Origin: Deltaproteobacteria bacterium
GTDB taxonomy: Bacteria > Myxococcota_A > JAADFL01
DNA length: 64,000 bases
Reading direction: 5' to 3'
Assembly (NCBI GenBank): GCA_013152945.1
Contig: JAADFL010000078.1
Coordinates: forward strand, 1 to 64,000
This document shows positions 32,363 through 51,348 of the stretch, piece after piece. The first letter of the stretch is position 1. Each line of letters begins with the position of its first letter. Below the pieces are notes generated by a model. It was given only the letters and a program-made list of their open reading frames with translations, made no database searches and was not told where the DNA came from. Made by a program: the position numbers and the translations under genes.

Positions 32363-33199
32363 ATGGAAATGCCAAGAAAACTGATGGTTGTGGCTATTTT
32401 TTTTGTTGTTTTAGGGTTTGGAGCATTTTCGGTGTCAGTCATGGCTGCCGACAGTGATGGAAAGCAGTCGGACAAGAGTAGTTCCGAGAAGGAACAGCCT
32501 TCAAAGAACAAGGATGCCAAGGCCGCGAGTGAACAGAAGAAGTTGGAAAAACCTGCCCAGTCTGTCGATTCCTTGAAGACATCCAAAGATGTGTACGGCT
32601 TGAAGATCAGAGATCTGGAACAAAGAGTAAATGAATTGAAAGAAAAGATCTTCCGAAGTAAAGCCAGGCTGATGTTGCTTCGTGAGACGGTGTTGACCGG
32701 GGTTATTTCCGGAGCAAAGGCCCGAATAGTTCACAGCAATGAAATGGGTGGTTCTTTCAAACTCATATCCGCTTCATATTACCTTGATGGCGCCCCCATT
32801 TACAAAAAGGTCGATACCGAAGGCAAACTCGACAAAGAGAAATCTTTGCAGGTATTTGCCGGCAATGTGGTTCCCGGTCCCCATCTCATCTCTGTTCAGC
32901 TTCAATATGTCGGGTATGGGTATGGCATTTTTTCTTACCTTAACGGGTACAAGTTCAAGATAAAATCAAGTTACAGCTTTAATGCCGAAGAAGGTAAGAT
33001 AACGAATATCAAGGTCGTGGGCTATGAGAAAGGTGGACTCGCGGTCGACATCAAGGATAGACCTTCTGTGCGGTACGATGTCCAGATAAAGAGGGAGTCA
33101 ACTGTTGACACATCTCTCCAAAAGAAAGCCAGTACAGCAGACTCCACCAATGCCGAATCATCCGGCAATGAGCAAGGGGAGGGCAACAGTAGTGAATAG
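32363..33199 (+). CDS. exported protein, PEGA/myxobacterial envelope type, function unknown
   Basis: 278 residues; GGGAGGTGGGG precedes the ATG. Signal peptide MVVAIFFVVLGFGAFSVSVMAA. Low-complexity Ser/Lys linker (30-65), a coiled-coil helix (~75-105, LKIRDLEQRVNELKEKIFRSK), then a beta-sandwich-like region with SYYLDGAPIYKK and VFAGNVVPGPHLISVQLQYVGYG, and a polar tail. In related bacteria such genes sit with TPR and TolQ/R genes. First gene of the operon; overlaps the next by 8 bp. Confidence 0.82.
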   Translation: MEMPRKLMVVAIFFVVLGFGAFSVSVMAADSDGKQSDKSSSEKEQPSKNKDAKAASEQKKLEKPAQSVDSLKTSKDVYGLKIRDLEQRVNELKEKIFRSKARLMLLRETVLTGVISGAKARIVHSNEMGGSFKLISASYYLDGAPIYKKVDTEGKLDKEKSLQVFAGNVVPGPHLISVQLQYVGYGYGIFSYLNGYKFKIKSSYSFNAEEGKITNIKVVGYEKGGLAVDIKDRPSVRYDVQIKRESTVDTSLQKKASTADSTNAESSGNEQGEGNSSE

Positions 33200-35867
33200 G
33201 AGCAGGTTCGGTTTGACCGGCCCTCTTCTCCTGTCCATGGTTTTGTCGGTTTGTTGGGGAGGAGAGGCATTCGCCGCCGGCGGCAAAAATTTGGACGTAA
33301 GTGCCGCGCTCAATATGACAGAGCAGAAGGTTACACAACTGATGGAAAAGTTGCAATTTCTCCAAAAAGAATACGGAGAAAAGAACGCGGGCATTAATGA
33401 AAGAAGCATAAGTATCGAGAGACGAACAAATGAAGGGCAGGTTTTCTTTTTTACAGGCGATTATGTGCGTGCGGCCATTATTTTCTACGATTTGGTCGAG
33501 AATCCGAAATATGCCCACCTGCCCGGACAGGACGAGCGAATTTTTTATCTTGCCGAATCCATGTTCAAGAATCGAAATTACCTGGGAGCAAGAAAATACT
33601 ATATGCAACTCGCAGACAAGGGACCATCGAATCAATTCTTTTTCAAGGTGCTTCCCAGGTTGGTGACGGTAGCTGCGAGTCTCGATGAATACATGGGAAT
33701 AGATAAATACTTTGCAATGCTGGAAAACCGGCCCAGGAAAGAGGTAGGCGAAAATATCTATTATATACATGCCAAATCATTGTTCGACAGGGGCAAGCTG
33801 AAGGAAGCGGACAAGGAGTTTTCCGCATTTCCGGATACCAGTCCGTTCGCCCGTAGGGCTCGCTATTTCAGAGGGGTGATAGCAGTAAGCCGGGGCCCTA
33901 AGCATTACAAGGAGGCTATCGACTATTTCAGGAGCATTGCTTCCATCAAGGCGTCTTCCGATGAGGAAAAATCCATCAAGGATCTTGCAAAGCTTGCAGA
34001 GGGCAGAGTATTGCTCGAAATGGGTAAGATTGATGATGCATTGGATGCATACCAGGCAATAGATCGGTTTTCTCCGTATTTTGCAGAATCACTTTACGAG
34101 ATTGCATGGTCTTGGATCAGGGAAGCCAATAACACAAAAGGGGAAAGGAAGCAGAAAGAATTATTCAATAAGGCATTGTCCACCATCGATATCTTACTTG
34201 CCGCTCTGCCGGAAGGAAAATTGTTGCCAAAGGTAAAACTTCTCAAAGGTGATCTGCTGTTGAGACTCCAATCACTGAATAAGGCGGAGAGGAGCTATAA
34301 TGGCGTTATCAAACAGTTCGAGCCTGTGAAGTTGGAGTTGGAAAAGATAATTGCAGAGCATGAGGACCCGAAACGTTATTTCCACGAGATAATGGGCAGC
34401 AACCTCGACAAATTCGATGTTTCCAGCTTTTTACCTCCTTTAGCGGTCAAATGGGCGAAAAAAAGCGATCGAGTCAAGCGGGCGCTTTTGGCATTGAAGG
34501 ACTTGAAGGCCAGCAAGAATATGCTTCAAGATGCTGAGAGGATTGCTGAACAATTGAAAACAGCAGCCGAAGAGAGTTCGGAGCAAGGTATAATGCCAAG
34601 ACAAAAGGAAGCCCGGGAGAAGGCTCTTGCTTTAAATGCACAGGCATTGGACCTAAAGCGCAAGCTTGCCGAGATCGAAACTGAGATCCTGCTTCGTTCG
34701 AGGATAAAGAGCAGCGGCTTGGCCAAGGTTGAGGAGGAAAACAAGATCGTGAAAATGCAACGTGAACTCCCCGAACTGGGTGGTGAGCTCGAGGCAATAT
34801 CAGTGTTGTTGAAGGCGGCAGCCAAATGGTGTTCCGATACTGAAATGGAACGAGGCCTGTCAAAGGACGAGAAAAAATTTTGCCGGGATCGTGTATTCAA
34901 CGAGATGAAAAAGCTGAAAAGCCTTGGTGCGGAGACAGAGGGTACAAAGAACGCCCTGAAAAAGACGCTTGCGAATAAGGGATTGGAAGACTGGGTTCGT
35001 TACGAAGATGCCAGGGCCAAGCGCAGGAGATTGGAAAAGTTGGTTCAAAAACTTCCAAAGACGGTCAAGGGACTGGAAGATATCGACCGGGAAGCTATGG
35101 AACGCCTGCATGACGTGCAAAAAGAAAATTTAAGACTTGGCTATGAACTGGATAGCATGCTGGAGCAGCTCAAGGCAATAGAACGTTGGAGGAGGGACAC
35201 CTATTCGAAACGCAGGATTTCAGAAAAGCATGAAAAGGAATTCAAGGAAAGAATCGCGCGGGAACTGACTGTCGTAAAAGAAATGAAGGGTGTACAGAAA
35301 GAAATATCCGACAAGCTCAATGAAGAAATTACAAAGGTATCCGTCATTGGAACAGGCGGCGTGGGTGATAATCAGGCGATAAGGGCCTCTTATGAGAAGG
35401 CGCTTGTCAAGGAAAAGGAGCTTTTTCACAAGCTTCGCAGAAATCTCGATCCGGATGGCCAACGCAAGGTGGCAGAGATAGATGCTCTACGTTCCAGGTT
35501 GGAGGAATTGAATAGTGGCGTGAGGGAATTCCTTGCACAGATGGAACAGAAGACAGGCAAAAAGGCGGGTAAACTCGCATCAGAGGTCGATCAGATTGGC
35601 AAAGAACTCGAAAAGTACATGGCGCAGGTGAAAAAAATCAAGGAAGATGCCGAGATGACTGCAGGTAGCGTGGCCTATGCTTCGTTCAAAGACGTAAGGG
35701 AGCAATTTTATAAGCTTGTCTTAAGGGCGGACGTAGGGCTCATAGATGTGGCCTGGGCCAGGACGGAGAGCCAAAATAAAAAGCGGGAGGAGTTAGTGAA
35801 GAAGAAGTCTGAAGAAATGAGAGCCCTCTACCAGAAATACCAGGAAATAACAGAGGAGCTCCAGTAG
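33192..35867 (+). CDS. large exported TPR/coiled-coil protein
   Basis: 891 residues from GTG at 33192, chosen because GGGGAGG sits 7 nt upstream and it yields signal peptide VNRSRFGLTGPLLLSMVLSVCWGGEAFA. Residues ~90-330 hold degenerate TPR-like helices (YFTGDYVRAAIIFYDLV-type). From ~390 onward it is highly charged and predicted coiled coil (for example LEEENKIVKMQRELPELGGELE-like heptads). Likely a periplasmic spacer or scaffold. Followed one base after its stop by the 1213-residue TPR gene. Confidence 0.82.
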   Translation: MNRSRFGLTGPLLLSMVLSVCWGGEAFAAGGKNLDVSAALNMTEQKVTQLMEKLQFLQKEYGEKNAGINERSISIERRTNEGQVFFFTGDYVRAAIIFYDLVENPKYAHLPGQDERIFYLAESMFKNRNYLGARKYYMQLADKGPSNQFFFKVLPRLVTVAASLDEYMGIDKYFAMLENRPRKEVGENIYYIHAKSLFDRGKLKEADKEFSAFPDTSPFARRARYFRGVIAVSRGPKHYKEAIDYFRSIASIKASSDEEKSIKDLAKLAEGRVLLEMGKIDDALDAYQAIDRFSPYFAESLYEIAWSWIREANNTKGERKQKELFNKALSTIDILLAALPEGKLLPKVKLLKGDLLLRLQSLNKAERSYNGVIKQFEPVKLELEKIIAEHEDPKRYFHEIMGSNLDKFDVSSFLPPLAVKWAKKSDRVKRALLALKDLKASKNMLQDAERIAEQLKTAAEESSEQGIMPRQKEAREKALALNAQALDLKRKLAEIETEILLRSRIKSSGLAKVEEENKIVKMQRELPELGGELEAISVLLKAAAKWCSDTEMERGLSKDEKKFCRDRVFNEMKKLKSLGAETEGTKNALKKTLANKGLEDWVRYEDARAKRRRLEKLVQKLPKTVKGLEDIDREAMERLHDVQKENLRLGYELDSMLEQLKAIERWRRDTYSKRRISEKHEKEFKERIARELTVVKEMKGVQKEISDKLNEEITKVSVIGTGGVGDNQAIRASYEKALVKEKELFHKLRRNLDPDGQRKVAEIDALRSRLEELNSGVREFLAQMEQKTGKKAGKLASEVDQIGKELEKYMAQVKKIKEDAEMTAGSVAYASFKDVREQFYKLVLRADVGLIDVAWARTESQNKKREELVKKKSEEMRALYQKYQEITEELQ

Positions 35868-35868
35868 G

Positions 35869-38800
35869 ATGGAAGACATAGGCTTGGTGTTGGCTCGAAA
35901 CAGGTCGATCCATACGATAATTCTGTCGCTTCTATTGTTTTATTTGGTGGTTGCTCCTTCTTTCGTCCGGGCCGCACAGGATGATGAAGATAGTGTGGAA
36001 GAAAGTACACAGGAAGATACGGGCGAGGAAAAACCGGTGAAAAGTCCGGACAAGCCCGCCAAAGCAATCGAGAATTCAAAAAAAGAGACAGTGGTAACTC
36101 CCGAGGCATTGGAGGAATACAAAGAGGTAAAAAAACTTCAAGAGGATTATGAGAATGTGGTAAAAGAATACCGTGATGATATTTTTCAAATGGTTGAGCA
36201 CACCAGGGCCAGGCGTGAAAGAGAAATTAACCGCAGCTATGATTCAGCGATAGACAACCTTGAAAAAACAGAAGAGCTGATGCGAAATGATGCAATTGCC
36301 AAGTTTGAGAAGTTCCTTGAAAAGTATCCTGATGATCCTCATTATTCGCCTGATGCGATGTACAGGCTGGCCGAACTTTATTTCAGGAGTGCACAAGACA
36401 AATACCTTTCCGCCCTTGATGTGTACGATGAAGAGTACACGAAATATGAGCAGGGCGTAATTGCGTCGGAACCGGCGGAACCAACCAAGGATTTCAGCAA
36501 GTCGATTGCCCTGTACCAAGATCTTATTGGTAGTTTCCCTCATTACAGGTTTGCAGACGGCGCCTTGTACCTGCTGGGGTATTGCTTGAAACAACAAGGA
36601 GAAAACAAAGAGGCCAAGGAGAGCTGGGACAGGCTGGTCAAGAGTTATCCAAAGAGCAGGTTCGTACCAGAAGCACTCACCAGGATAGGAGAATATTACT
36701 TTGATTCGAATGAGCTTGAAAGTGCTATTGCAACATATAGAAGGGCAAAAAAATTCAAAGACAGTCCATGGTACGATAAAATTTTGTATAAACTGGGTTG
36801 GACATATTACCGGTTGGACCGATTCCAGGAGGCAGTGACCACTTTTGGAGAGTTGCTGGATCTATATGAAAAAATGAGTAAAAAGGAATTGGCTGAACGG
36901 GGTGATTTGAAAAAGGAGGCTATTGAATATACAGCCGTATCCTTCAGCGAACCGGAATGGGGAGGACAGACCTTTACCGAGTTGGAGGCCCAGGGTGGGG
37001 GATTGGATCTCGAGAAAAATATCGAACGGACAAGGGAATTCTTCAAAAAGCAGTTCCCCAACAGGAAATGGGAACGTGATGTGTGGAAGAAATTCGCCGA
37101 AGTTTTATATAAGAAAACCAGGTACAGGGAAGCAATTATTGCATACAAAAAAGCCCTGGCGCTGAATCCCCTGGCAAAGGATGCTCCTTTACTTCAAGAG
37201 CAGATTATCAACGCGTACACCGAGCGTAGGGAAATGGACAAGCGGGCGGAAGAAATGGAGAGACTTGTAAAGGATTACAGCGAGGGTTCTCCATGGTGGA
37301 AAGCAAACGAGAACGACCCGGACACGTTACGAAAGGCAAGGAGAACCACCCAGGAGAAGCTTCTCGGTGCTGCCGTATTTCACCACGAGACAGCCCAAAA
37401 ACTGGCAGCCAGTCCCGAACCCGAAAATCAGGCCAAGGCCTTCGAAGAATATAAGAAGGCAGCTACCGGATATGCGGAATATTTGAAGCGATTTCCTCAC
37501 GATGAGCGTGCCTATGAACTTACATACTATTTGGGTGATGCGCTTTATTTTTCCAAGCAGTATGAAAAGGCAGCCAAGGTGTTTGCAAAGGTCAGGGATT
37601 CGAGGTTCAGTGATAAATACAGGGTTGATGCAGCCAAGTCGGTGTTGTTTTGCGTGAGGGAAATCATCAAGGCACAGGAAGCCAGCGGAAAGCTGGCAAA
37701 GATGAAAGCGCACAAGGACCCGAGTGAACTTCCAAAGGAACCCCTTGATATCCCGCCGATTAGAATGGAACTAGTCAAAGCCGGGGATAAATTTTTAGAA
37801 TACGAGCCTCAACACAAGGATGCCGCGGTAATAGGTTACAATGCAGCCCTGGTTTTTTATAGGTTCGGGCATTTCGATGAGGCCGAGCGCAGGTTGAAAT
37901 TGCTCATCAACAGGTATCCAAAGTCCAAGTATGCAATGGATTCCATAAAGTTGTTGATTGATAGGTATATTGCGGCAAAGAACTACGAGATGGTCGCAAA
38001 ATGGGCAACTAAACTCACGGAATTGGCAAGTGTTGGTGGTGAAGGCGACAGGACCAAGGATGCCGAGGAAGGCAAGGCTCTGTTTGTCGGTGCAAGGTTC
38101 AACGTGGCGATGAAATGGATGAAGGAAGGGAAGTATGAAAAAGCGGCGAATGAATTCCTGCGGATAGTCGATGAAAATCCAAAATACGAGAAGGCGGATG
38201 TCGGGATAAACAACGCAGCCGTATGTTTCACAAAGGCCAAGCGTTATATTACATCCATGAAAACCTATGAGAGATTGGTGCGGGATTATCCAAAATCCGG
38301 GTTGGCAGCCAATGCGACATGGTACATCGCAACCAATGCCGAGCAGGGATTCGACTTCAACAAGGCGATAACCTATTATGAAAAATTAGTTGAGAAATAT
38401 CCGACACATGAACACAGGGCTGATGCGGCGTACAATGCAGCCCTGTTGCGGGAAAAGAATGGAGACTATAAAGGCGCGGCAAAGGGTTATGAAAGGTATG
38501 CACGGATGTTTCCTGATAGGGATGATGCTGCATCCGTTTTTTTTCAGGCCGGCCGTGTATATGAGAAGGCACATGATATCCGGAACATGACGAGAGTATT
38601 CAAGACATTCATCAAGAAATACGGCAAGGCCCCTCAAAATTATAGATATGTCATGGAAGCGCTGGTCAAAATCGGCGACTATTACTATGAAAAGAGCAAG
38701 AAGGCCAGGAACTGGCGTGTGGCCCGGGATACCTTGAAGACCGCCAAGAAGTTCTATTCCGATGCAGTGGATTTCTTCGACAGTCACAAGTTGCCTCCGG

Positions 38801-39510
38801 GTAATATCGAAGCGGAATTCGCTGCAAAGGCGGCATTTCTGCTTGCAGAATTCAGGCTTCCCGAGTTTGAAAAGATCAAGATTTCCGGAGGCAGGAACAA
38901 GAGGAAATTTCAGAAAGTGCTGAAGGCTCAGATGACCAAGAAGATGGAAAAGATAAAAGAACTGCGCGTACTCTACGAGAATGTTTTAAAATACAGTAGG
39001 GCAGATTGGTTCCTGGCTGCAAAGTACAGGCTGGGGTATCTTCCTCAGGCTTTTGCAAAGGCTATTATGGATGCCCCTGCGCCTCCGGATGTTGCCAGAG
39101 ACGAAGAGGCTATGTCCGTATATCAGGAGATGCTGTACCAGGCTGCAGAACCCATTGAGGAGAAGGCAATCGAAAGCTACAAGTTGGTTGTCGAGACATC
39201 CGAGCGATTCAACTATACTAATGAATGGGTTACAAAGGCGAAATTGGCGATGGCAAAGCTGCGTCCTTCAGAGTATAAAATAGACAAGCCGCCCAAGATG
39301 GAATTGATCTGGAAAGATGCACTGTACACTTCATTGGTAGGACAGGAAAAGAAGACTCCCCCATCGGACAAATCATTGGGCGGGGAAGAAAAGGGGAACA
39401 AGGCAGAAAATAATAAAAATATCGATAATACGAAGAAAAATGATACTGGAGCGGAGGACCAGGAAGAAGAGCCTGCTGAATCCGAGGACAAGGTCGGGGG
39501 TGAGAAGTGA
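35869..39510 (+). CDS. giant exported TPR-repeat protein
   Basis: 1213 residues. Signal peptide IHTIILSLLLFYLVVAPSFVRAA. Acidic linker 25-70, then many tandem TPR/Sel1-like units over ~75-1150, such as YPKSRFVPEALTRIGEYYF and FPDRDDAASVFFQAGRVYE, with an acidic tail. Solenoids of this size occur in the Myxococcus gliding apparatus and in YbgF/BamD-type envelope proteins. No enzymatic motifs. The stop overlaps the next start (GTGA). Confidence 0.85.
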   Translation: MEDIGLVLARNRSIHTIILSLLLFYLVVAPSFVRAAQDDEDSVEESTQEDTGEEKPVKSPDKPAKAIENSKKETVVTPEALEEYKEVKKLQEDYENVVKEYRDDIFQMVEHTRARREREINRSYDSAIDNLEKTEELMRNDAIAKFEKFLEKYPDDPHYSPDAMYRLAELYFRSAQDKYLSALDVYDEEYTKYEQGVIASEPAEPTKDFSKSIALYQDLIGSFPHYRFADGALYLLGYCLKQQGENKEAKESWDRLVKSYPKSRFVPEALTRIGEYYFDSNELESAIATYRRAKKFKDSPWYDKILYKLGWTYYRLDRFQEAVTTFGELLDLYEKMSKKELAERGDLKKEAIEYTAVSFSEPEWGGQTFTELEAQGGGLDLEKNIERTREFFKKQFPNRKWERDVWKKFAEVLYKKTRYREAIIAYKKALALNPLAKDAPLLQEQIINAYTERREMDKRAEEMERLVKDYSEGSPWWKANENDPDTLRKARRTTQEKLLGAAVFHHETAQKLAASPEPENQAKAFEEYKKAATGYAEYLKRFPHDERAYELTYYLGDALYFSKQYEKAAKVFAKVRDSRFSDKYRVDAAKSVLFCVREIIKAQEASGKLAKMKAHKDPSELPKEPLDIPPIRMELVKAGDKFLEYEPQHKDAAVIGYNAALVFYRFGHFDEAERRLKLLINRYPKSKYAMDSIKLLIDRYIAAKNYEMVAKWATKLTELASVGGEGDRTKDAEEGKALFVGARFNVAMKWMKEGKYEKAANEFLRIVDENPKYEKADVGINNAAVCFTKAKRYITSMKTYERLVRDYPKSGLAANATWYIATNAEQGFDFNKAITYYEKLVEKYPTHEHRADAAYNAALLREKNGDYKGAAKGYERYARMFPDRDDAASVFFQAGRVYEKAHDIRNMTRVFKTFIKKYGKAPQNYRYVMEALVKIGDYYYEKSKKARNWRVARDTLKTAKKFYSDAVDFFDSHKLPPGNIEAEFAAKAAFLLAEFRLPEFEKIKISGGRNKRKFQKVLKAQMTKKMEKIKELRVLYENVLKYSRADWFLAAKYRLGYLPQAFAKAIMDAPAPPDVARDEEAMSVYQEMLYQAAEPIEEKAIESYKLVVETSERFNYTNEWVTKAKLAMAKLRPSEYKIDKPPKMELIWKDALYTSLVGQEKKTPPSDKSLGGEEKGNKAENNKNIDNTKKNDTGAEDQEEEPAESEDKVGGEK

Positions 39511-41129
39511 AGCGCCTGGTTTGGTCCAAGTTACCCCTTATCAGTTGTTTTTTAATCCTGCTGTTTCTATTTGTTTCCGGATGTGGCGGCGCTCAAGAAA
39601 AAGAAACTGCATCGGCTGTTGTGTCTCAAAAAAATGGAACGGAAACAGGACCTGCGGTGTCTAAAGAAAAGCCGAAGAAAGACAAGGAGCAGGAGAAACC
39701 GGGTAGACCAAAAACAGAGTCCCCTGCCAAAAAAGAGGCTGGTGAACAAGGTGGCAAGACAGGTATGGGAAAGGGCCTGGAGAAAAGCGAAACAGTCGAG
39801 AGTAAAAGTAAAATTGAGAAAAAAGATGAACGAGGAAAAGTCGATACCGGTCCCAGGTTGCCTCCTGGTTTCAAGGAAGCGGTAGCCTTGGCCGAACACA
39901 ATCCGGCTCAGGCGAAAGCAAGGTTCAAGGCTTTTTTACGGCAAACTCCGAACCTGTATCAGGCCCAGGTGAACCTTGCAATATTGGCTGACAGGGAAGG
40001 CAACTTGGGAGAGGCGGAGAGAGAATTGAAGGCGGCGTTGGCAATTGCTCCACAAAACAAGGAAGCATTGTATACTCTTTTGCGAGTGCTCAAAGAGCAA
40101 GGCCGAATCAATGAGGCGGTCTCGATAATCGAAAGAACTTCGGCAAGTGATCCGGAGAATAATGATCTGAAAAACGTGCTGGCTTCCGCATTGATACAAA
40201 AAGGAGATTTGTCCAGGGCCGAGAAATTGACCAAGAGCGTTTTGAAAGACGATGAAAGAAACGTGGATGCCATGATGAATTTAGGGGACATCTATGCCAA
40301 GGAAGAAAAGCATGAACTTTCATCATTCATCTATGAAAAAGCAGCGGAATTGGATCCTTCGAATGCGGATATCTGGTATCGGCATGCCAGGGAACTAATG
40401 AAATTGTTTAAACTCACCGGTTCCAAGGCTATGCGTGCAAAGGCGATCCTCTCTCTAAAGAAGGCGGTTGCAGTTGATCCGAGTCATGCGCTTGCACAGA
40501 ATAATCTTGGAGTGATGCTGTTGAAGAGCGGTGATTCTGCAGGAGCATTACAGGCGCTCAAGGCGGCGGCGATGGCTATGCCCAATTCATTCGATATTCA
40601 TTTGAATCTTGGGGATGCATTTCGGGCGGCGCGGATGTACAAGGAGGCGGATCAGGAATACAAGAAGGCTTTGAAATTGAAGCCTGATAATCCCAAGGCA
40701 TTGTTCAACTTGGGCCTGTTGTACCTGGACAATAATGTCCCGGGGTACGATGACCTGGTGAAACGTTTAAGCCTGGCAGTCGATTATCTCCGGAAATACA
40801 AGGATGCAATGGGCCCGAGATTGGCCGCCGATGATCCTGCACAGGGTTACCTCGAAGATGCGGAGAAGTTGAAAAAGAGGGAAGTGAAAAGAAGGGAGCA
40901 CGCAGAGAAACGAAGATTGAGAAGGCTCAAGAGGCAAGAGGAAGAACGAAAACGTAAAGAAGAAGAGCGCAAGAAAAAAGAAGAAGAAGAAAAAGAAAAG
41001 AAAATAGAAGAAGCCAAAAAGGCTGACCTTATCAAAAAGGAGACTCCTGCAGTGAAAACAGAAAAAAAGGCGACAAATCAGGATGACAGTGAAGATGAAG
41101 AAAAGCTTGATGAGGGCGAAGAAAAATGA
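39507..41129 (+). CDS. TPR-repeat lipoprotein, AglT/GltE-like
   Basis: 540 residues from GTG overlapping the upstream stop. Lipobox VSGC (Cys26). Lys/Glu-rich linker ~30-105, TPRs ~115-400 (PNLYQAQVNLAILADREGN, PSHALAQNNLGVMLLKSGD), then a long KKEEEE-type charged helix (~430-510) that may bridge the periplasm. The combination lipobox+TPR next to TolQ/TolR genes resembles AglT/GltE of M. xanthus, but homology is not proven by eye. Confidence 0.85.
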   Translation: MKRLVWSKLPLISCFLILLFLFVSGCGGAQEKETASAVVSQKNGTETGPAVSKEKPKKDKEQEKPGRPKTESPAKKEAGEQGGKTGMGKGLEKSETVESKSKIEKKDERGKVDTGPRLPPGFKEAVALAEHNPAQAKARFKAFLRQTPNLYQAQVNLAILADREGNLGEAERELKAALAIAPQNKEALYTLLRVLKEQGRINEAVSIIERTSASDPENNDLKNVLASALIQKGDLSRAEKLTKSVLKDDERNVDAMMNLGDIYAKEEKHELSSFIYEKAAELDPSNADIWYRHARELMKLFKLTGSKAMRAKAILSLKKAVAVDPSHALAQNNLGVMLLKSGDSAGALQALKAAAMAMPNSFDIHLNLGDAFRAARMYKEADQEYKKALKLKPDNPKALFNLGLLYLDNNVPGYDDLVKRLSLAVDYLRKYKDAMGPRLAADDPAQGYLEDAEKLKKREVKRREHAEKRRLRRLKRQEEERKRKEEERKKKEEEEKEKKIEEAKKADLIKKETPAVKTEKKATNQDDSEDEEKLDEGEEK

Positions 41130-41216
41130 ACCTTCTATTTTTTAAAAAAAACTGTTGCCAAGTGCCCCGTATCTTGTGGTATAGAATAATAACTCTTCGG
41201 TAAAGGGAGGTGCCCG

Positions 41217-42229: not shown

Positions 42230-42790
42230 ATGGCCCGGAAACCATCCGAGCGAAGGCATGTTGAAGAGGGAGATAGTAGTCTTAATATCATCCCCATGAT
42301 GAATCTTATCTGCCTCTTGATTCCTTTTCTGTTGCTTTCAGCGGAGTTCATCAAGATTGCAGTGATAAATGTGTCATCACCGCAACTGGGTACCGGACCA
42401 TCACCAACAGCCCAGAAGAAGGAAAAGCAGGATAAACAGCCGTTGAACCTTACTATCGCCATTACTGATCAGGGGTTTACAATTGCCGGTTCCGGGGCGG
42501 TTTTGGGTGCGGAAGATAATTCCGGGGGACCTACTATTCCACTCAAGGAGCGGTATGACAAGGACCTTCGTAAAAATGTGCTCGATTACGATTACGAGGC
42601 TCTAACCAAGAAATTGGATGACATCAAGAAAATAGCCCCTGATGAAACTCAGGTCATTATCAGTGCAGAACCGGATATCAAGTATAAAGTATTGATAAAA
42701 ACCATGGATGCAAGCAGAGAAACCAAGGATGAAGAGGGCGGAACGAAATTCTTGTTTCCAGACGTAGTGCTTAGTGCAGGTATCGTCTAG
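42230..42790 (+). CDS. ExbD/TolR-family protein lacking the membrane Asp
   Basis: 186 residues, strong SD (AGGAGGTAGCG). Short cytoplasmic N-terminus, one membrane helix (~22-40, IIPMMNLICLLIPFLLLSAEF) and a periplasmic domain. The usual ExbD/TolR motif is LvD at the helix start; here the position reads M-M-N25-L, so the protonatable Asp is replaced by Asn. The second ExbD gene downstream retains it. It may be a regulatory or structural partner in a heteromeric stator. Confidence 0.88.
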   Translation: MARKPSERRHVEEGDSSLNIIPMMNLICLLIPFLLLSAEFIKIAVINVSSPQLGTGPSPTAQKKEKQDKQPLNLTIAITDQGFTIAGSGAVLGAEDNSGGPTIPLKERYDKDLRKNVLDYDYEALTKKLDDIKKIAPDETQVIISAEPDIKYKVLIKTMDASRETKDEEGGTKFLFPDVVLSAGIV

Positions 42791-42900: not shown

Positions 42901-43512
42901 ATGACGGATAAAAACAAAAAGGGCAATGGTAATCCGGGTAGCGAAGATGTAAATGCAATGCCGCCTGCTTTGACTGCGGAAGAACAGGCATGGTTGGACG
43001 AGAAGAAAGCGGGCCGCAAGCGACGGGTACCTGAAAAGCCGTATCCATTCCAGATGAACTCGATGCTGGATATTCTCACCATCATCTTGGTGTTTTTGCT
43101 GAAAAGCTATTCAACCAACCCGGTAAACATCACGCAGAGCAATGATCTTACATTGCCAATATCAACCAGCACCTTAAAACCGGAGCATACTGTTACAGTA
43201 GCGATTTCGAAGAAAGATATTATGGTGGATAACAATGCTGTGGTTGAAGTGAGAGACGGCAAGGTCGATGCAAGCGCCAAGAGAGACGGAGAACATAGTT
43301 ATTTTATTACACCGTTATATGATGCGTTGTTCGACAAAGCTGAAAACGCCAGAAATGTGGCAAAATATAATCCGGACGTGGAGTTCAAGGGGAGGTTGAC
43401 GGTAATCGCCGATGAAGAGACACCCTTCAGGTTGCTTTCTGAGGTGATGTACACGGCCGGACAAGCTGAGTACAGCCAGTATAAATTTGCTGTAATACAA
43501 GGAAGCGAATAG
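42901..43512 (+). CDS. ExbD/TolR-family protein with the membrane Asp
   Basis: 203 residues. A longer hydrophilic N-terminus, then a membrane helix MLDILTIILVFLLKSY (55-70) with D57 in the canonical proton-carrying position, then a periplasmic domain (DLTLPISTSTLKPEHTVTVAISKKDIMV). Together with the ExbB and the Asn-variant it would form the motor. GAGAGAG precedes the ATG. Confidence 0.93.
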   Translation: MTDKNKKGNGNPGSEDVNAMPPALTAEEQAWLDEKKAGRKRRVPEKPYPFQMNSMLDILTIILVFLLKSYSTNPVNITQSNDLTLPISTSTLKPEHTVTVAISKKDIMVDNNAVVEVRDGKVDASAKRDGEHSYFITPLYDALFDKAENARNVAKYNPDVEFKGRLTVIADEETPFRLLSEVMYTAGQAEYSQYKFAVIQGSE

Positions 43513-43607
43513 GTGGATTGTTAGGATATAGAAGGTGTCATGAATTACTATATGCTGAAATTTGACTTGCTGGGGTCTGCAAGGAATTGGGGTGAGGGGT
43601 CTGCGGT

Positions 43608-45002
43608 ATGGCTGTAAAAGCGGATCAAAAGATCCTGCGTATAGGAATAATTCAAAGTGGAAAGATAATAGAGGAGCGTCTCCTTAGGAAAAGGGAGGCA
43701 ATAACCGTCGGAGAGTCTACAAAAAATACCTTTTCTCTTCCTATTCCGGGGTTAGGCAAAAGGTACACCCTTTTCCCGATGAAGGGTGGGAAATACGAGC
43801 TTGCATTTACAGAAAAAATGCAAGGAAAAATCACGAGTAAGGGTGGTGGAGTCGTTGATCTCCAGTCCCTGAAAAGTCAGAAATTAGTAAGGAAAAAAGG
43901 GGGCGTTTTCTATTATTCCCTGACGCCGGATACAAGGGGTAAAATACAGATCGGCGAGGTGATTTTTCTCTTCCAGTTCGTGAAGCCGCCTCCGCTTCCG
44001 GCCAAACCGAAATTGCCTGCAGTGGCAAGGGGTGGCTTAATAAGAAGTATCGATTGGGTGTTTGCAACCATTGTGGTGATATCTTTTTTGGCCCATACCG
44101 GAGTTATTGCTTATGCGAAATCGCAGCCAAAGCCTCCGGAACCAACCCTCGAGGATCTGGGCGAACGTTTTATGCGTGTAATAATGCCGAAGAAACCAAA
44201 AAAGAAGCCAAAGGTTGAAAAGCCCGGCGGCAAAAAAGGCGGAACAAAGGCCAGGAAAAAGACGAAGAATAAATCCAAAAAGGAGGGCGAGGCAGGGAAA
44301 AAGGCCGGCGGCAAGAAAAAAGCCATGAGCGCGGAAGAAGCGGCCAGGGCCGCTGCCCAGAGAAGGGCTGAATTGAGAAAAAAGATGGCATCAAAGGGTG
44401 TTCTCGGAATACTCGGTTCTCTGGGAGGTGGAAGAAATAGTAATGGAATGAAAGTGGCCGATGTCTTTGGGACAGGACACATCACCGGCGACCTGGATGC
44501 AGCGTTTCGAGATGTCTCGGGCGTCGACATAGCTTCCGAAGGCGGGGCGAGAACTTCACGTGGCGGTGGTGGAGCTGCCGGAGATGGGCAAATTGCCAAT
44601 ATTGCCAGTTTGAAGGCCTCCGGGGTGAGTGGTGGTGGCGGCCTTGGCAGAAAAAAAGCTGCTACAGTGCGAGGATCCATTAAATCCGCTGCTCCGGAGA
44701 TTGATGGCGCTTTGGATAGTGGCGCCTTGCAGAGAGCGGTAAGAAGAAAGATGTCGGCTGTCAAGGCGTGTTATGAAAAACAATTGAAGAGGAATCCCAA
44801 CCTCTCGGGTAAGATCGTAATCTATTTTGTTGTGGGTGGCAACGGTCGTGTAACGGAAGCCTCAATTGAGCAAAATACAATGGGCAACAAAGAGGTAGCG
44901 GCTTGTATACTGGTGAAAATAAAACGTTGGATATTCCCAAAGCCCGAGGATGGAGAGGAGGCCCCGGTTACTATCCCGTTTGTGTTTGCCCCGGTAAAAT
45001 GA
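43608..45002 (+). CDS. FHA-like / transmembrane / AgmX (TonB-like) protein
   Basis: 464 residues. Residues ~1-125 resemble a cytosolic FHA-like beta-sandwich (AITVGESTKNTFSLPIPGLG). One membrane helix at 150-170 (WVFATIVVISFLAHTGVIAYA) leads into a Pro/Lys/Ala/Gly-rich extended region (~172-350) and the C-terminal AgmX/PglI TonB-like domain (~365-464: VKACYEKQL, GRVTEASIEQNTM, CILVKIKRWIFPKP). This is the layout of M. xanthus GltG/GltJ (PglI/AgmX). It would couple motor strokes in the inner membrane to the TPR proteins. Confidence 0.92.
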   Translation: MAVKADQKILRIGIIQSGKIIEERLLRKREAITVGESTKNTFSLPIPGLGKRYTLFPMKGGKYELAFTEKMQGKITSKGGGVVDLQSLKSQKLVRKKGGVFYYSLTPDTRGKIQIGEVIFLFQFVKPPPLPAKPKLPAVARGGLIRSIDWVFATIVVISFLAHTGVIAYAKSQPKPPEPTLEDLGERFMRVIMPKKPKKKPKVEKPGGKKGGTKARKKTKNKSKKEGEAGKKAGGKKKAMSAEEAARAAAQRRAELRKKMASKGVLGILGSLGGGRNSNGMKVADVFGTGHITGDLDAAFRDVSGVDIASEGGARTSRGGGGAAGDGQIANIASLKASGVSGGGGLGRKKAATVRGSIKSAAPEIDGALDSGALQRAVRRKMSAVKACYEKQLKRNPNLSGKIVIYFVVGGNGRVTEASIEQNTMGNKEVAACILVKIKRWIFPKPEDGEEAPVTIPFVFAPVK

Positions 45003-45093
45003 GAAAGTGCCCAGGTAATCTTTATCATCGGGGGAGTGTGGACTCGTCGAAACGCGGTAAAAAGCTTGGAATTACTGCTGGAGTAGCTTGAGC

Positions 45094-46032
45094 ATGAAAG
45101 CAAAATGGCATAAAGAAGTAAGAGAATTGCTTAGCTCCGTGGAATTCAAGCAATGGTGGGATGAACTGAATAAAACTGAAAAGGATATCGAAGGGACGAA
45201 TCAGAAGTTGGAAGAAGAGTTGGCTCAAGTGACTTTGCTTGAATTTCGTTCCGAGTTTACCCAAAAGAAAGGAATAGATACACTGGACAAGGCAAATGAT
45301 CACGAGTTTACAGCCGAGAGCATGCAGGCTGAGGCGAGTGAATTGGAAAATAAGGCCTTGGAAGCGGTGGCAAGGTTCGAGGAATTGAGGTTCTTGGTGT
45401 CTGACCTTTGGTCCAAGCTCGGTGCAAGAGAGCATCAACTCGAGGTTGCCAGGACATCCGGAGAAAAAGCAAAGGTCAAGTCATTGGAGCGGGAAGTAAA
45501 ACTGGCCAGGGAAGAGTACGAAAGAGAAATGGCTAAAAAGGTTCGGGCTTGGGATGACGTGGAACGCATGTGGGGAAGAGCACTCGAAATCAACCTGGTA
45601 ATCGCAGAAAACAGGGTGAGGGCAAGGAAGGTAAGGAGACAGTCCGAGCAATTTTTCCAGGAAGCCGAAAGGCACAGAAGAAATGCCATTAAGCTTAAGG
45701 AAGAGGCAAAAGATACGGAGAAAAAGCTAAAAGAACTGGGAGAAAAAACAGAGGGATTATTTCTGAAAGTATCCAAGAGATTAGACTGTATTGTAGAGAA
45801 AGAATTTCTTTATTGGCAACAAAGGGAAAACAATAAGCTTGTGTGGGCGGTACCCTTGGTAGAGGACAGATCCAGCTATAACATAGAGGTAACTCCGCTG
45901 GAGGTGTATCAGGTAGACCGTGTAAGGGGCGTCGAATTTGTCGAACCGGTACCCGAACGTGTTATTCCCGAGCAGGATGACACAAGGATAGATGATTTTT
46001 TTAACGCCGGACCGAGGCGCCAGAGCGGATAA
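45094..46032 (+). CDS. coiled-coil protein, function unknown
   Basis: 312 residues, no signal peptide. GGAG lies 10 nt before the ATG; a TTG at 45088 is an alternative. Nearly all of 20-235 is charged helix (for example EVARTSGEKAKVKSLEREVKL), followed by a ~70-residue C-terminal part (FLYWQQRENNKLVWAVPLVEDRSS). Co-directional with the motor genes and likely a cytoplasmic or peripheral component. Confidence 0.75.
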   Translation: MKAKWHKEVRELLSSVEFKQWWDELNKTEKDIEGTNQKLEEELAQVTLLEFRSEFTQKKGIDTLDKANDHEFTAESMQAEASELENKALEAVARFEELRFLVSDLWSKLGAREHQLEVARTSGEKAKVKSLEREVKLAREEYEREMAKKVRAWDDVERMWGRALEINLVIAENRVRARKVRRQSEQFFQEAERHRRNAIKLKEEAKDTEKKLKELGEKTEGLFLKVSKRLDCIVEKEFLYWQQRENNKLVWAVPLVEDRSSYNIEVTPLEVYQVDRVRGVEFVEPVPERVIPEQDDTRIDDFFNAGPRRQSG

Positions 46033-46062
46033 AATCAAGCCGCTGTTGCAGGAGCAGGAACG

Positions 46063-46512
46063 ATGGAGAAACTGGCAATATTAGAAAAATCGCCTCTGTT
46101 CGTCAGCTTGCATCCAGAAGAACTGGACATGCTTGCCGAACTTTCACAGGAGCGAAAATTTACCGCCGGCGAGGTTGTGTTCAACGAGGGTGATGTGGGA
46201 GATTCTCTTTACGTCATCGTATCCGGTGCAGTGAATATACTTCGTAAGGACAAAAATGGAAAACAACGCAGTATCGCGGTACTCAAGGAGGGAGAGTTTT
46301 TTGGGGAGATGTCATTGATTGACAAGGAATACAGATCAGCTACATGCAGTGCAATGACCGACGTCGAATTATTGAAATTGACTAATGAAAACCTACATTC
46401 TTTTGCAAGAGTGTACAAGAACGGTTTTACATTGGTAGTAATCAACATCGCGAGGGTATTGAGCCTTCGTCTAAGGGAGACGAGCGAGAAGCTTGCCGAG
46501 TGCATTCAGTAG
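46063..46512 (+). CDS. cyclic nucleotide-binding domain protein
   Basis: 149 residues; CAGGAGCAGG precedes the ATG. A single cNMP-binding (CAP-type) jelly roll: GEVVFNEGDVGDSLYVIVSG and FFGEMSLIDKEYRSATC, with the phosphate-binding-cassette Glu and Arg present, so cAMP or a related ligand is expected. There is no DNA-binding domain, so it is a stand-alone sensor. In the envelope operon it may gate the machine. A candidate cyclase is at 59955-62921. Confidence 0.92.
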   Translation: MEKLAILEKSPLFVSLHPEELDMLAELSQERKFTAGEVVFNEGDVGDSLYVIVSGAVNILRKDKNGKQRSIAVLKEGEFFGEMSLIDKEYRSATCSAMTDVELLKLTNENLHSFARVYKNGFTLVVINIARVLSLRLRETSEKLAECIQ

Positions 46513-46581
46513 TGACCGGGTACCGATTGTGAGCCTGTCTAAATGGCTTCGCAGAAATCTACAACAAAAAGGAAAAATAGG

Positions 46582-49500
46582 ATGATCATGAAAATCAACA
46601 CGTTAGCAACGTACTCCCTATACCTCTTTGTTTTTTGTTTATTTGCCGTGTTTTCTTTTCCGGCCGATCTTTATTGTGCGGAGTTGTTTCAGGGATTTCC
46701 TAAAAAATTCGCCTCGAGTGCCGGGTTGAATTCTCCTGCGGTAGGTGACGTGGATGGAGACAAGAGCCCTGATATTGTATTGACCGTAGGAGCTGAAATA
46801 CATGTGCTTACAGCAGAGGGTGAGCCAAGTTATGCAGTTCCCGTAAAAGGAGGGAGCATAACGGCTTCTCCGACTTTGCACGATCTGGATGGAGATGGCG
46901 CCCTTGAGATTGTTATTGGAGATCTAACAGGGAAGCTGCACGTCATTTCGGGAGGTACTACAGAGGAGAAAGGTTTCCCAAAGCAACTAAAAGGGGGAAT
47001 AACTTCGACTGCCTTGGTTGCGGATATCGACCTGGATGGCCGGCCGGAAATTGCGGTAGGCACGAAAGCAGGGCTGTTATATGTTCTTAAAAGCAACGGC
47101 AGTATACTCCATGGCTTTCCAAAGAAACTGGGGTCAGCCATAAAGGGGAACCTGGCTCTCGGAGACTTGACAGGAGATGGTCGTCCGGAATTGGTAGCGG
47201 CCACTCAATCCGGGTCTGTATTCGTAATAACGTCAAAAGGCCGTATTCTGAAGGGGTGGCCAAAGAAGGCGCGCTTCGAGGTGTCCGGAGGTGTATCCCT
47301 GGGAGACGTTGACGACGACGGCATGTTCGAAGTTGTATTCGGTTCACAGGACTTTAAACTATATGCTTTTAATGGTGATGGAACCTCGGTAAAGGGTTTC
47401 CCTCTCAAAACCCCGTACCGGATTTATGGTGCACCGGCATTAGCGGATCTCGATGGAGATGATGTTACCGATATTGTCGTAGCCATAGGAGATGGAAAGG
47501 TTTGGGCGATAAACGGTTCCGGACAAATGTTGAGGGGATGGCCGAGGCGTGTCGGCAAGAGGATTAGCGGCGGACCGGTAGTGGCTGACGTGGATCGTGA
47601 TGGTGATCTTGAGGTGGTCGTTGCAAGTGGAGATGCTGGTTTGGCGGTCTTTCATCACAATGGCAAGCTGATGGCCGGTTTTCCGGTCGAACTGGGCGGA
47701 GCGACGTACGCGACACCCACGGTGGCTGACCTGGACAGGGACGGCGCCATGGATATACTGGTGGGTACTGTCGAGAAGGAGCTTTATTGCTTTCGTGTTC
47801 CACCGGAGGACAAGGAAGGAGTGGCTCCGCCGTCCTGGCCCACGATGGGTCGGGATTTTTCGAGAGTGGGACATACCTATCCCAATCGTCCCAGGTTCAA
47901 GAACCTGAAAATTCTGCCGGAAAAACCGGGCACACGCGATACCTTGAAAGCAGACTACGAGTACTTCGACCTGGATGGCGAACCGGAGAGGGATACACAG
48001 GTTAGGTGGTATCTGGCCGGCAAAGAAGTAAAGGAGTTGAATGGAAGCAAGGAAGTCTCTCCTGAAATGACGAAAAAGGGCCAGCATTGGCGAGTGGAGA
48101 TCCAGGGTGGTGACAATTTCAAACGATTCGGCCGCTCGGGCAAAGGGGCCAAGGTATACCGGAGTCGTGTCGTAATAATCAGGAATAGCCCGCCCGGGGC
48201 TCCTGAAATTTCCATTGCTCCAAATAACCCGAAAACAGGAGATGACCTCCTGGTGAAAATATTGAAGGACGCACCTGATCCGGATGGGGAAAAGGTAAGC
48301 TATACTTTCAGGTGGATCAGGAATCACAAACCGGTAAAAATATCACTGCATAGCATGAAGATATCATCCAGACGGACACGGAAAGGAGACCACTGGATAG
48401 TTGTAGTAACGGCGTCGGACGGCAAAGAAGAGGGCAATCCGGCAAGGGCCGAAACAAAGATCGAGAATACGCCGCCAGGCCCTGCCGAATTTGAACTGGT
48501 ACCCAAAAAACCAAAAACCACGGATGAGATCAAGGTGCGGATTAAGAGGCATGCAAAGGATCCTGACGGTGACAAGGTTCATTATGATGTGACCTGGAAA
48601 ATAGACGGTAAGCAAGTTCCAAGCCCTCCGGATAAACTTGTCCTTGCGCCCCATTTTGCCGTAAAGGGACAGGAGGTGACGGCAAGATTGACTTCTCTTG
48701 ATGATAAGGAACGGGGAGCTGTCGCAGAGGCAAAAACGGCCTTGTTCAACAGCAGGCCGAGACCGCCCAGGGTGATCATCAAGCCGGATAAGCCGGATAC
48801 AGAGAACCCACTCTCCGTGTTTCTGGCGGATGAAGGGGAAGATGATGATCAAGATACATTGAGTTACCATTACAGGTGGTTCAGGGATGGAAAAGTGATC
48901 AAGGGATTTTCTGCATCTACAGTGCCTCCAAGTATGACCAAGAGAGGACAGGTGTGGAAAGTAGAAGTGAAGTCTGATGACGGATTCTTGAAATCAAAGC
49001 CTTCTTTTGCCGAAGTCAAGGTAGGCAATGCTCCTCCCGTGCCACCCGGGATCTCCTGGAAATCAGGAGGTACAAAGACGACCGAACCACTGGAGGTGAT
49101 AATCGACAAGCCTGCCACGGATCCTGATGGAGATAAGGTGAGATTGAATTTCCTGTGGAGCCGTGATGGTAAGACGGAGAAAGGAGCTGTTGGCCCGGTT
49201 CTATCTCCAGGTATGACAAAGAAAGGGGATTGTTGGTCAGTGGAGGTGACTCCATATGACGGCAAGGACAAGGGAAAGCCAGTTCGCATGACAAGGTGTA
49301 TCGAAAACACTCCGCCGGGTCCTCCGGGCATCGAGTTGGAACCCAAGAACCCATTTACAACCGATGACTTGGTTTGCAAGGTGGCCCATGGTTCCAAGGA
49401 TCCGGATAATGACAAGATTACCTATTCATTTCAGTGGTTCAGAAACAATGATGTGTTTCGAGTTCCGAAATCGAGCAGAGCGATGGGGAAAAAGGGCAAG

Positions 49501-51348
49501 AAGCAAAGTGGGAGTAATAATAAAACATCAGCGGTATTGAGTTCGAGTTATACAACCAAGGGCGACGAATGGACCTGCAAGGTTATCCCGAACGATGGTC
49601 AGGCAAATGGCACTCCTTTTGAGGCAAAGGTGAAGATAGCCAATCGTGCGCCTACCGCTCCGATTGTAACTATTGAGCCACGGAACCCAAAGACAGGTGA
49701 CAGGCTTGTTGCGCACATTGAGAAACCTTCATCCGACAGTGATGGAGATGGAATTTCGTATGAGTACCATTGGTTCAAGTCGGGTAATGAGCAAAAAGAT
49801 TTGAAAGGACGGGCAGATGTCCCTCCGGGTAGAGTTGTCAAGGGCGCTATGTGGTCATTGGAAGTTATTCCAAATGATGGCTTGGCTTATGGAAAGCCGG
49901 GCAAGGCGAGTGTACAAATTGGCAATACCAGTCCATCTCCACCGGTTATTGCAATAACTCCCCAGCATCCGAGGACAAAGGATGACATTAGGGTGGTGAT
50001 AAGAAAGAAAGCGGTCGATCCGGACAAGGATAAATTAACATTTGTTTACAGGTGGTACTTAAACGGCAAATTGGTACCGGCCAAGGAAGGCCTGGATGCA
50101 ACCCTGTTGCCGTCGGGCGAGACTTCTTCAGGTCAAAACTGGCGTGTCGAGGCCATGGCAAAGGATGATTCGTCATCGTCCAAGCCTGGTTTCGTAGAAT
50201 TTACGATAGGGAACACCCCTCCAGCAAAACCATCAATAGAGATCGTCCCCAAGCATCCAAAAACCAATGACAATATACAATGCAAAGTGTTGTCACAGCC
50301 GCAAGACCCTGATGGTGACAAGGTGAGTTATCGCTATTCGTGGTTGAAAGACTCCAAGCCGATTGGCAGGTCCGGAAAAAAACCTTTCATTGATGCCAGG
50401 CTGACGGCGAAAGGCCAGGTGTGGACTTGCGAAGTTGCTCCTTTTGACGGCAGTGCTGTTGGACCGCGTGCACGAAAATCTGTTGAAATCACGAATAGTG
50501 CACCGACGCCTCCGGCCATTGTTGTTCAACCGCAGGCTCCGACACGGTTGGATCGATTGACGTGCAAGAATGTGAAGAAGGCCGTTGATCCGGACAAGGA
50601 TAACCTCGAAGTAAAGTACTATTGGTTACGTAATGGGAAAAAGGTGGATTTTGCACCTGATGCAGCCATATTACCGGCCGGCAGTCAAAAGGAAGGGGAG
50701 AAGTGGTCCTGCATGGTGGAGGTGACTGATGGGGAATCTGTTGCAAAGGCACAGAGTAAGGTCGTGGTCATCGGAAATGCTCCGCCGTCCGCCCCAAGCG
50801 TTATTGTCGAACCGTCGAGACCGGAGACAGGAGATGACTTACATTGCTGGGTTTCGTCGCCAGCCATAGATCCCGACATGGATCCGGTTGCGTACAGGTA
50901 CAAATGGTATCTGGGGAACAAGCATGTAAAAAAACTGGATGGCAAGGATTTGGTGCAATCCGGCATGACCAGGAAACGGCAAAAATGGACTTGTATGATA
51001 AAAGCCGTCGATGATCAGGGCGCCTCGGGTCCTGATGGTTCGTCAAGCGTGCAGGTGGTCAATGCGCCGCCTGGAAAAGCCAAGGTGATGGTGCAGCCTG
51101 AATCACCAACATCGAGACAGGATTTGCATTGCAAAGTGGTGGAGCCAAGCTTGGATCCGGATGGAGACAAGGTCTCTTATGACTATTACTGGTATAAGGA
51201 TGATATTTTGCAGAAGAGCTTGAAGGGCCGTGCCCGGGTTCCTTCAAGATTGACAAAGAGTGCTGATATCTGGAGATGTGAGGCTGTGCCGAAGGCTGCG
51301 GGATTGGAAGGACCCAGGGCGGTAAGTTCTGACGTAATTGTGCGCTAG
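46582..51348 (+). CDS. giant exported protein: FG-GAP repeats plus 12 Ig-like repeats
   Basis: 1588 residues from ATG 46582 (AAAGGA upstream; ATGs 46543 and 46588 are alternatives). Signal peptide TLATYSLYLFVFCLFAVFSF. Residues ~35-410 hold eight FG-GAP/VCBS-like units with DxDGD calcium-binding loops (VGDVDGDKSPDIVL, LADLDGDDVTDIVV), probably a beta-propeller. From ~420 come 12 units of ~95 residues with a DPDGDK loop and a W-x-V/C-x-V core (for example FELVPKKPKTTDEIKVRI), Ig/cadherin-like. No membrane anchor. Likely a surface adhesin or ligand of the upstream machine; that is inference. Confidence 0.9.
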   Translation: MIMKINTLATYSLYLFVFCLFAVFSFPADLYCAELFQGFPKKFASSAGLNSPAVGDVDGDKSPDIVLTVGAEIHVLTAEGEPSYAVPVKGGSITASPTLHDLDGDGALEIVIGDLTGKLHVISGGTTEEKGFPKQLKGGITSTALVADIDLDGRPEIAVGTKAGLLYVLKSNGSILHGFPKKLGSAIKGNLALGDLTGDGRPELVAATQSGSVFVITSKGRILKGWPKKARFEVSGGVSLGDVDDDGMFEVVFGSQDFKLYAFNGDGTSVKGFPLKTPYRIYGAPALADLDGDDVTDIVVAIGDGKVWAINGSGQMLRGWPRRVGKRISGGPVVADVDRDGDLEVVVASGDAGLAVFHHNGKLMAGFPVELGGATYATPTVADLDRDGAMDILVGTVEKELYCFRVPPEDKEGVAPPSWPTMGRDFSRVGHTYPNRPRFKNLKILPEKPGTRDTLKADYEYFDLDGEPERDTQVRWYLAGKEVKELNGSKEVSPEMTKKGQHWRVEIQGGDNFKRFGRSGKGAKVYRSRVVIIRNSPPGAPEISIAPNNPKTGDDLLVKILKDAPDPDGEKVSYTFRWIRNHKPVKISLHSMKISSRRTRKGDHWIVVVTASDGKEEGNPARAETKIENTPPGPAEFELVPKKPKTTDEIKVRIKRHAKDPDGDKVHYDVTWKIDGKQVPSPPDKLVLAPHFAVKGQEVTARLTSLDDKERGAVAEAKTALFNSRPRPPRVIIKPDKPDTENPLSVFLADEGEDDDQDTLSYHYRWFRDGKVIKGFSASTVPPSMTKRGQVWKVEVKSDDGFLKSKPSFAEVKVGNAPPVPPGISWKSGGTKTTEPLEVIIDKPATDPDGDKVRLNFLWSRDGKTEKGAVGPVLSPGMTKKGDCWSVEVTPYDGKDKGKPVRMTRCIENTPPGPPGIELEPKNPFTTDDLVCKVAHGSKDPDNDKITYSFQWFRNNDVFRVPKSSRAMGKKGKKQSGSNNKTSAVLSSSYTTKGDEWTCKVIPNDGQANGTPFEAKVKIANRAPTAPIVTIEPRNPKTGDRLVAHIEKPSSDSDGDGISYEYHWFKSGNEQKDLKGRADVPPGRVVKGAMWSLEVIPNDGLAYGKPGKASVQIGNTSPSPPVIAITPQHPRTKDDIRVVIRKKAVDPDKDKLTFVYRWYLNGKLVPAKEGLDATLLPSGETSSGQNWRVEAMAKDDSSSSKPGFVEFTIGNTPPAKPSIEIVPKHPKTNDNIQCKVLSQPQDPDGDKVSYRYSWLKDSKPIGRSGKKPFIDARLTAKGQVWTCEVAPFDGSAVGPRARKSVEITNSAPTPPAIVVQPQAPTRLDRLTCKNVKKAVDPDKDNLEVKYYWLRNGKKVDFAPDAAILPAGSQKEGEKWSCMVEVTDGESVAKAQSKVVVIGNAPPSAPSVIVEPSRPETGDDLHCWVSSPAIDPDMDPVAYRYKWYLGNKHVKKLDGKDLVQSGMTRKRQKWTCMIKAVDDQGASGPDGSSSVQVVNAPPGKAKVMVQPESPTSRQDLHCKVVEPSLDPDGDKVSYDYYWYKDDILQKSLKGRARVPSRLTKSADIWRCEAVPKAAGLEGPRAVSSDVIVR

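Follow-up and report, generated by a model that had tools for sequence, protein, structure and literature searches.

A cluster of genes on contig JAADFL010000078.1 of a Deltaproteobacteria bacterium (GenBank assembly GCA_013152945.1) raises the question whether a motor resembling the Myxococcus gliding machinery serves for gliding, for the transport of a polysaccharide or a protein, or for something new. Positions 1 to 64,000 of this contig (C78) were analysed and are called the window; the host genome is a 4.84-Mb draft that is 94% complete, and the relatives used for comparison share only its phylum. Gene families were assigned by Pfam and NCBIfam profile searches of the window proteins. Gene calls confirmed the run of genes on one strand from 32363 to 51348 that the initial annotation had described, with intergenic gaps of at most 110 nt, but the unit does not end at 51348, as had been proposed there, because genes up to 56301 belong to the conserved unit. 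The reading that we favour, with moderate confidence, is that the window encodes an ancestral-type Agl/Glt core complex, composed of AglRQS and GltC/D/E/F/G-like proteins, which would be coupled to an OPX/beta-barrel polysaccharide translocon.

Conservation was followed in distant relatives from the same phylum and at 80 loci of named genomes, fetched by way of an AglR alignment. The gene order g1-g2-g3-g4-(gF)-AglR-AglQ-AglS-GltG-d1-d2-d3, in which g1 to g4 and gF stand for genes of exported proteins, d2 for a barrel gene and d3 for an OPX gene, was kept across many families at about 25-45% protein identity (55-76% for AglR), for example in Lujinxingia vulgaris, Plesiocystis pacifica, Enhygromyxa salina and a metagenome-assembled genome labelled Anaeromyxobacter dehalogenans. 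As this order recurs in distant relatives, it is not a product of chance. Where at least 4.5 kb of sequence followed GltG, at 49 named loci, the barrel gene d2 was found in 41, the OPX gene d3 in 39 and d1 in 36, and at two further loci the OPX gene lies just past the end of the fetched stretch. An internal control was carried out in 37 genomes, where window-type GltG was compared with all other GltG/AgmX matches of at least 68 bits for the presence of an OPX gene on the same strand no more than 12 kb downstream. Of the 24 window-type cases 16 had an OPX gene there, and of the 57 other GltG/AgmX loci none (Fisher p about 2e-11, a value that overstates independence, some contigs being short and the genomes being relatives of one another).

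The gene d3 is the sole OPX gene detected in the host genome. A single detectable OPX per genome was likewise found in 10 of the 16 genomes with a GltG-linked OPX, host included, and in 8 of the 10 genomes reached via the named loci, one of which may belong to a species already represented among the 16. Because the motor block adjoins this sole detected OPX gene and the arrangement is conserved in relatives, the original job of the engine is suggested to have been driving or distributing an exported polymer rather than moving the cell. At one locus (L042) the OPX gene is followed by glycosyltransferases, a Wzy polymerase and a sugar aminotransferase. Unrelated genes stand after OPX in other relatives, so that barrel and OPX are linked to the motor and not to the synthesis genes. 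The link between core and exporter, which the other GltG paralogues lack, is the first concrete candidate found for a function of the core complex in non-gliders.

The four export genes were overlooked in the initial annotation, although its option of a polysaccharide transport machine is in line with the reading favoured here; the OPX and barrel genes among them point to function more strongly than any other part. The four genes lie on the + strand, as do all genes of the unit. The first, d1 (51484..52041), encodes an exported protein of 185 aa and is conserved immediately upstream of the barrel gene. The product of d2 (52227..53465) is an outer-membrane beta-barrel candidate of the Wzp/EpsX/EpsL-like type, with a signal peptide, an aromatic C-terminus and a match to TIGR03016 (E 8e-7); comparison with profiles of solved structures gave nothing useful for d2. 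A short, Wza-like OPX lipoprotein of 235 aa with PF02563 (Poly_export) and SLBB domains is predicted for d3 (53438..54145). Its structure-profile matches were PDB 9n9a (8e-55) and Wza, and it has the features of a short OPX protein (at most 280 aa, Poly_export and SLBB, no C-terminal helix), ending in GDIIFVPESLF. The last gene, d4 (54160..56301), encodes a Wzc-type co-polymerase with tyrosine autokinase, recognised by PF02706 (Wzz), PF13807 (GNVR), a BY-kinase domain and a TIGR01007 score above the cut-off. Directly after it, at 56183-57644 of the window, lie genes for an ECF-type sigma factor and a zinc-finger anti-sigma protein, which are possible regulators of the export genes.

In ExbD-type proteins an aspartate in the membrane accepts the proton. 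One ExbB and two ExbD genes had been annotated in the run, and Pfam bears this out: AglR (41522..42175) is an ExbB/MotA-type channel protein (PF01618, MotA/TolQ/ExbB, 80.5 bits), and the two ExbD genes match PF02472 with 53.9 and 36.4 bits. The ExbD at the AglQ position (42230..42790) carries Asn25 at the site of the proton-carrying aspartate, and the one at the AglS position (42901..43512) has kept Asp57. To compare the two sites, 84 ExbD pairs adjoining AglR were collected, including the window pair and that of a second motor in the same genome, on contig C212; the columns compared come from an automatic alignment of pairs that are kin to one another. Residues at the AglQ/AglS positions were N/D in 67 pairs, S/D in 6, A/D in 3, G/D in 2, D/D in 3, D/G in 2 and D/A in 1. 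Exactly one aspartate was thus present in 81 of the 84 pairs, and a pair with none was never seen. The C212 pair showed the same Asn/Asp asymmetry as the window pair. At three loci (L114, L118 and L126) the aspartate had switched to the other paralogue; a swap of gene order as the cause of these reversed pairs was rejected, since scores of hidden Markov models show unchanged gene identities. A few further D/D pairs were observed among loci fetched later, e.g. L189. Both ExbDs carry the aspartate in the motors of genomes of 9-13 Mb, judged by their size to be probably Myxococcaceae, in gliding-type and second motors alike; the gliding-type motors L176, L182 and L184 show this. The explanation that fits the one-aspartate pattern best is an obligate heterodimer of ExbDs that has one proton site. 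The mutation AglQ D28N paralyses the motor of M. xanthus (PMC3858216). A review states that AglQ and AglS both carry the aspartate and calls the choice between hetero- and homodimer an open question (PMC9389320), on which the one-aspartate rule and the three natural reciprocal swaps bear.

That the cluster is a gliding motor, an option of the initial annotation, found no support and was rejected as the principal interpretation, as a gliding-type Glt cluster sits on another contig of the same genome, C25. This contig carries a CglD-like gene, an OMP_myx_plus barrel, a GltD-like gene, a giant TPR gene and GltI/GltJ-like genes. Its GltC scored 480 bits (cut-off 450), its CglF/GltF 100.5 bits (cut-off 90) and its GltE-like protein 124 bits, while its GltG-like protein, with 500 bits, remained under the NF033760 cut-off of 650, as did that of the window with 191. 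Motor genes were not found at the C25 loci (L054, L162 and L163), so one motor may serve more than one cluster. A third Glt-like cluster, on C212 (L164), comprises AglR-AglQ-AglS, an FHA/AgmX protein of 837 aa and GltC- and GltD-like genes; together with that of the window, its AglR-Q-S triplet with two ExbDs is one of only two found in the host genome. The absence of an MglA-type GTPase holds for the window, where no such gene was found, but an mglB-mglA pair, followed by a RecA-like gene, is present on contig C110 (L174, 576-1700). In the GltG tree, window-type and Glt-type proteins split with 100/100 support. Homology to Agl/Glt, as initially proposed, was right, with an AglR-type ExbB, two ExbDs and GltG-like and GltC/D/E-like proteins; profile comparison with the Glt families gave distant similarity, and all NCBIfam Glt cut-offs were missed. 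No match of g2 to NF033756 (GltC) was obtained even at E 1, and neither GltI, GltJ nor OMP_myx-type barrels, which are Group A parts, were found in the run. NF033761 had no match in the class of G085 and was uninformative. With the Agl-Glt system of M. xanthus the window thus has in common the motor, a GltG-type transducer, GltC/D/E-like TPR proteins and a small GltF-like protein, but GltA/B/H/I/J/K were not found in it and its proteins stay under all Glt equivalog cut-offs. It also differs from gliding-type Agl-Glt motors, with an aspartate in both ExbDs, in having lost that of one ExbD and in a GltG of another group. The missed cut-offs, the separate C25 cluster and the different group of its GltG indicate that the window cluster is not the gliding machine proper. 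On C25 (L054, L162), GltJ is apparently split into a gene for the zinc-finger N-terminal part and a gene with the AgmX domain, and a type III secretion SctV-like gene is located close by.

Several observations weigh against a coupling of motor and exporter. No exporter was found nearby at 8 of the 49 named loci, and an OPX gene was not close to GltG in 8 of the 24 genomes of the control, the barrel still being present in 6 of those. Most relatives lack sugar-synthesis genes beside OPX, d1-d4 have a promoter-like site of their own, and the counted loci are kin, so that significance values appear stronger than independent loci would make them. A conserved neighbourhood, moreover, does not prove one machine. 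The promoter-like site at 51419, the lack of a nearby OPX in about one third of genomes and the occurrence of export genes without the core in some genomes could be taken to indicate two adjacent operons with separate functions, a polysaccharide exporter having simply stayed next to a motor with some other job. We consider this improbable, since motor and exporter remain neighbours in many families despite low protein identity, an arrangement never seen with other GltG paralogues, and since in one lineage, represented by L157 (G042:C18), a second AglRQS triplet of the genome lies directly upstream of barrel, OPX and Wzc genes, with no Glt genes at all.

It is unlikely, though somewhat less so, that the AglRQS proteins of the window also or mainly power the gliding-type complex of C25 and belong to a gliding apparatus. 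Such a role would account for the GltC/D/E/F/G/I/J-like genes of C25 having no motor genes in a genome with two AglR-Q-S triplets and an mglB-mglA pair, and sharing is documented in M. xanthus, where one AglRQS motor is common to Glt and Nfs (PMC3858216). The window motor, however, has its own GltC/D/E/F/G set, conserved together with it, its ExbD pair is unlike those of the gliding-type motors of the probable Myxococcaceae, and the C212 motor is equally available to the C25 complex. Transport of proteins or lipids, or upkeep of the envelope, by a TonB/Tol-like system that carries no sugar would agree with TolQ/ExbB as the nearest solved structures of AglR and with the TonB-like C-terminus of the GltG-like protein; protein and lipid cargo were listed as possible by Wartel 2013 (PMC3858216). 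This explanation has little probability, as the run yielded no gene for a TonB-dependent receptor, TolB or Pal and the conserved outer-membrane partner is the OPX/barrel pair.

For the favoured coupling of core complex and translocon, the computation shows which genes are present, that their linkage is conserved, that they are distinct from the gliding-type Glt cluster of the same genome and that the one-aspartate pattern holds, while we infer the path of force, the cargo and the direction. Protons would flow through AglR around an ExbD heterodimer of which one partner has the proton-binding aspartate. The resulting movement would act on the GltG-like transducer, whose AgmX/TonB-like end is predicted to extend into the periplasm, and exported GltC/D/E-like TPR proteins together with the small GltF-like protein would relay the force as far as the outer membrane, where it may act on or beside a polymer that emerges via OPX (d3) and barrel (d2) and that the Wzc protein (d4) would help to polymerise, so that the polymer might be driven, spaced or wrapped on the cell surface. 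The proteins of g9-g11, a coiled-coil, a cyclic-nucleotide-binding and a propeller/Ig protein added in a sublineage, could perhaps be a regulator and a surface part. Such a mechanism draws support from the linkage, on the Agl-Nfs and OPX/barrel precedents and on the synthesis genes at L042. More tentatively, and at less than even probability, we propose that a Glt-type transducer directly powers OPX/barrel export or surface transport by means of an obligate single-site ExbD heterodimer, and that gliding is a later use with both sites active.

In M. xanthus, Agl-Nfs transports the Exo polymer on spores (Wartel 2013, PMC3858216). As proposed for the window, an Agl-type motor and a Glt-like complex work there on a polymer that leaves the cell through a Wza-type protein, but motor, nfs and exo genes are described as lying in separate loci, while motor, transducer and exporter are neighbours in the window. 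The locus of the Nfs sporulation complex has no motor genes, unlike that of the window, and no NCBIfam Nfs match was seen in the search of the window proteins. The core complex of Group B, as far as it is set out in the parts consulted of Luciano 2011 (PMC3169522), likewise places AglRQS in one cluster together with homologues of GltC, D, E and G; the window adds g1, a GltF-like gene, d1, the barrel and OPX, and an exporter link is not described in those parts, which derive gliding from the core complex and leave its function in non-gliders open. The OPX/barrel translocons documented in myxobacteria in 2022 (EpsY/EpsX and WzaX/WzpX; PMC9601211, PMC9603273) share with the window a short OPX lipoprotein without C-terminal helix, a barrel and a Wzc-type co-polymerase, but in the sections consulted of these papers they are not tied to an ExbB/ExbD motor, which the window translocon adjoins. 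Core complex and translocon were already known; neither their conserved linkage nor the one-aspartate rule was found in the open-licence literature searched, and an earlier description elsewhere is possible.

The run begins with g1 (32363..33199), the first gene of the unit in relatives too, which encodes an exported protein of 278 aa with a coiled-coil stretch and a conserved domain without family; comparison of g1 with profiles of solved structures gave nothing useful. It is followed by g2 (33192..35867), for an exported TPR/coiled-coil protein that is GltC-like by position and distant homology (E=6e-16 against the genome's own GltC, L054 on C25); the start of this gene, which had earlier been called at 920 aa, is most likely at 33192. 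The exported TPR protein of g3 (35869..39510; 1213 aa) is GltD-like by position and by homology to the C25 cluster, and g4 (39507..41129) encodes a GltE-like TPR lipoprotein with the lipobox VSGC (NF033758, 83 bits; cut-off 225). Four large exported TPR/coiled-coil proteins had been annotated, but there are three, as the 278-aa protein lacks TPR and a 314-aa protein, that of g9, is not exported. Missing from the earlier gene list was gF (41217..41477), for an exported GltF/CglF-like protein of 86 aa that ends in PF; 56 of 67 loci have a counterpart in the corresponding position. The window protein scored just 12.4 bits against NF033764 (CglF; cut-off 90) and matched the genome's own CglF by hhalign with E 4e-5 and probability 69. 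The gF profile also picks up small genes adjoining other GltG paralogues. We tentatively call the predicted protein GltF-like. The GltG-like transducer (43608..45002) is bitopic, with a cytoplasmic N-terminus, one transmembrane segment (143-162) and a C-terminal AgmX/PglI domain (NF033768, 104 bits; cut-off 40). Of the FHA, transmembrane and AgmX parts initially assigned to it, the latter two were borne out and FHA was not (Pfam, E 0.1).

Between GltG and d1 the window carries g9 (45088..46032), g10 (46063..46512) and g11 (46543..51348), which are an addition of a sublineage. The 314-aa coiled-coil protein of g9 is present in that sublineage and has neither signal peptide nor membrane helix, g10 encodes a stand-alone cyclic-nucleotide-binding domain (PF00027, 93 bits), and g11 an exported protein of 1601 aa with an FG-GAP propeller (PF13517/PF01839) and about 12 Ig-like repeats of about 95 aa; the cyclic-nucleotide-binding and the huge repeat protein had both been annotated correctly. 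All or part of this insertion, followed by d1 and d2, was also found at L114/L151, L118/L152, L185, L189 and L190, while at L058, L065, L104 and L127 of the same sublineage g9/g10 were present and an exporter was not found nearby. About 13 kb from g10, a gene on the - strand (59955-62927) encodes a TPR protein that contains an adenylate/guanylate cyclase domain (PF00211) and is a possible signal source.

A single good promoter had been proposed for the run. A promoter-like site, TTGACA-17-TATTTT, is indeed present before g1 (32266..32294, + strand; 10 of 12 matches, as a class not above chance), but a better match, TTGACA-18-TATAGT, lies before d1-d4 (51419..51448, + strand; 11 of 12 matches). 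The scan found 27 sites where 21 +/- 6 were expected; being this near to chance, it makes the site at 32266-32294 weak evidence. Strong internal promoters and terminators splitting the run had been named in the initial annotation as a refuting condition; the counts of both kinds of site did not differ from chance. As a separate promoter-like site precedes d1-d4, we make no claim that they are transcribed together with the motor.

The stretches searched contained no Rfam family and no tRNA gene, and relatives of the locus were not found in the viral contigs searched. Upstream of the run, on the - strand, an ORF for a cysteine-rich, lipoprotein-like protein of 1036 aa (25244-28354) has many CC-containing repeats, no Pfam match and a raised GC content of 0.60. 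Genes for a Mur ligase, a beta-lactamase family protein and an LD-carboxypeptidase, resembling peptidoglycan-recycling genes, are also found on the - strand (28632-32191); in L117/L191, Mur ligase and beta-lactamase-like genes are placed after d4 instead.

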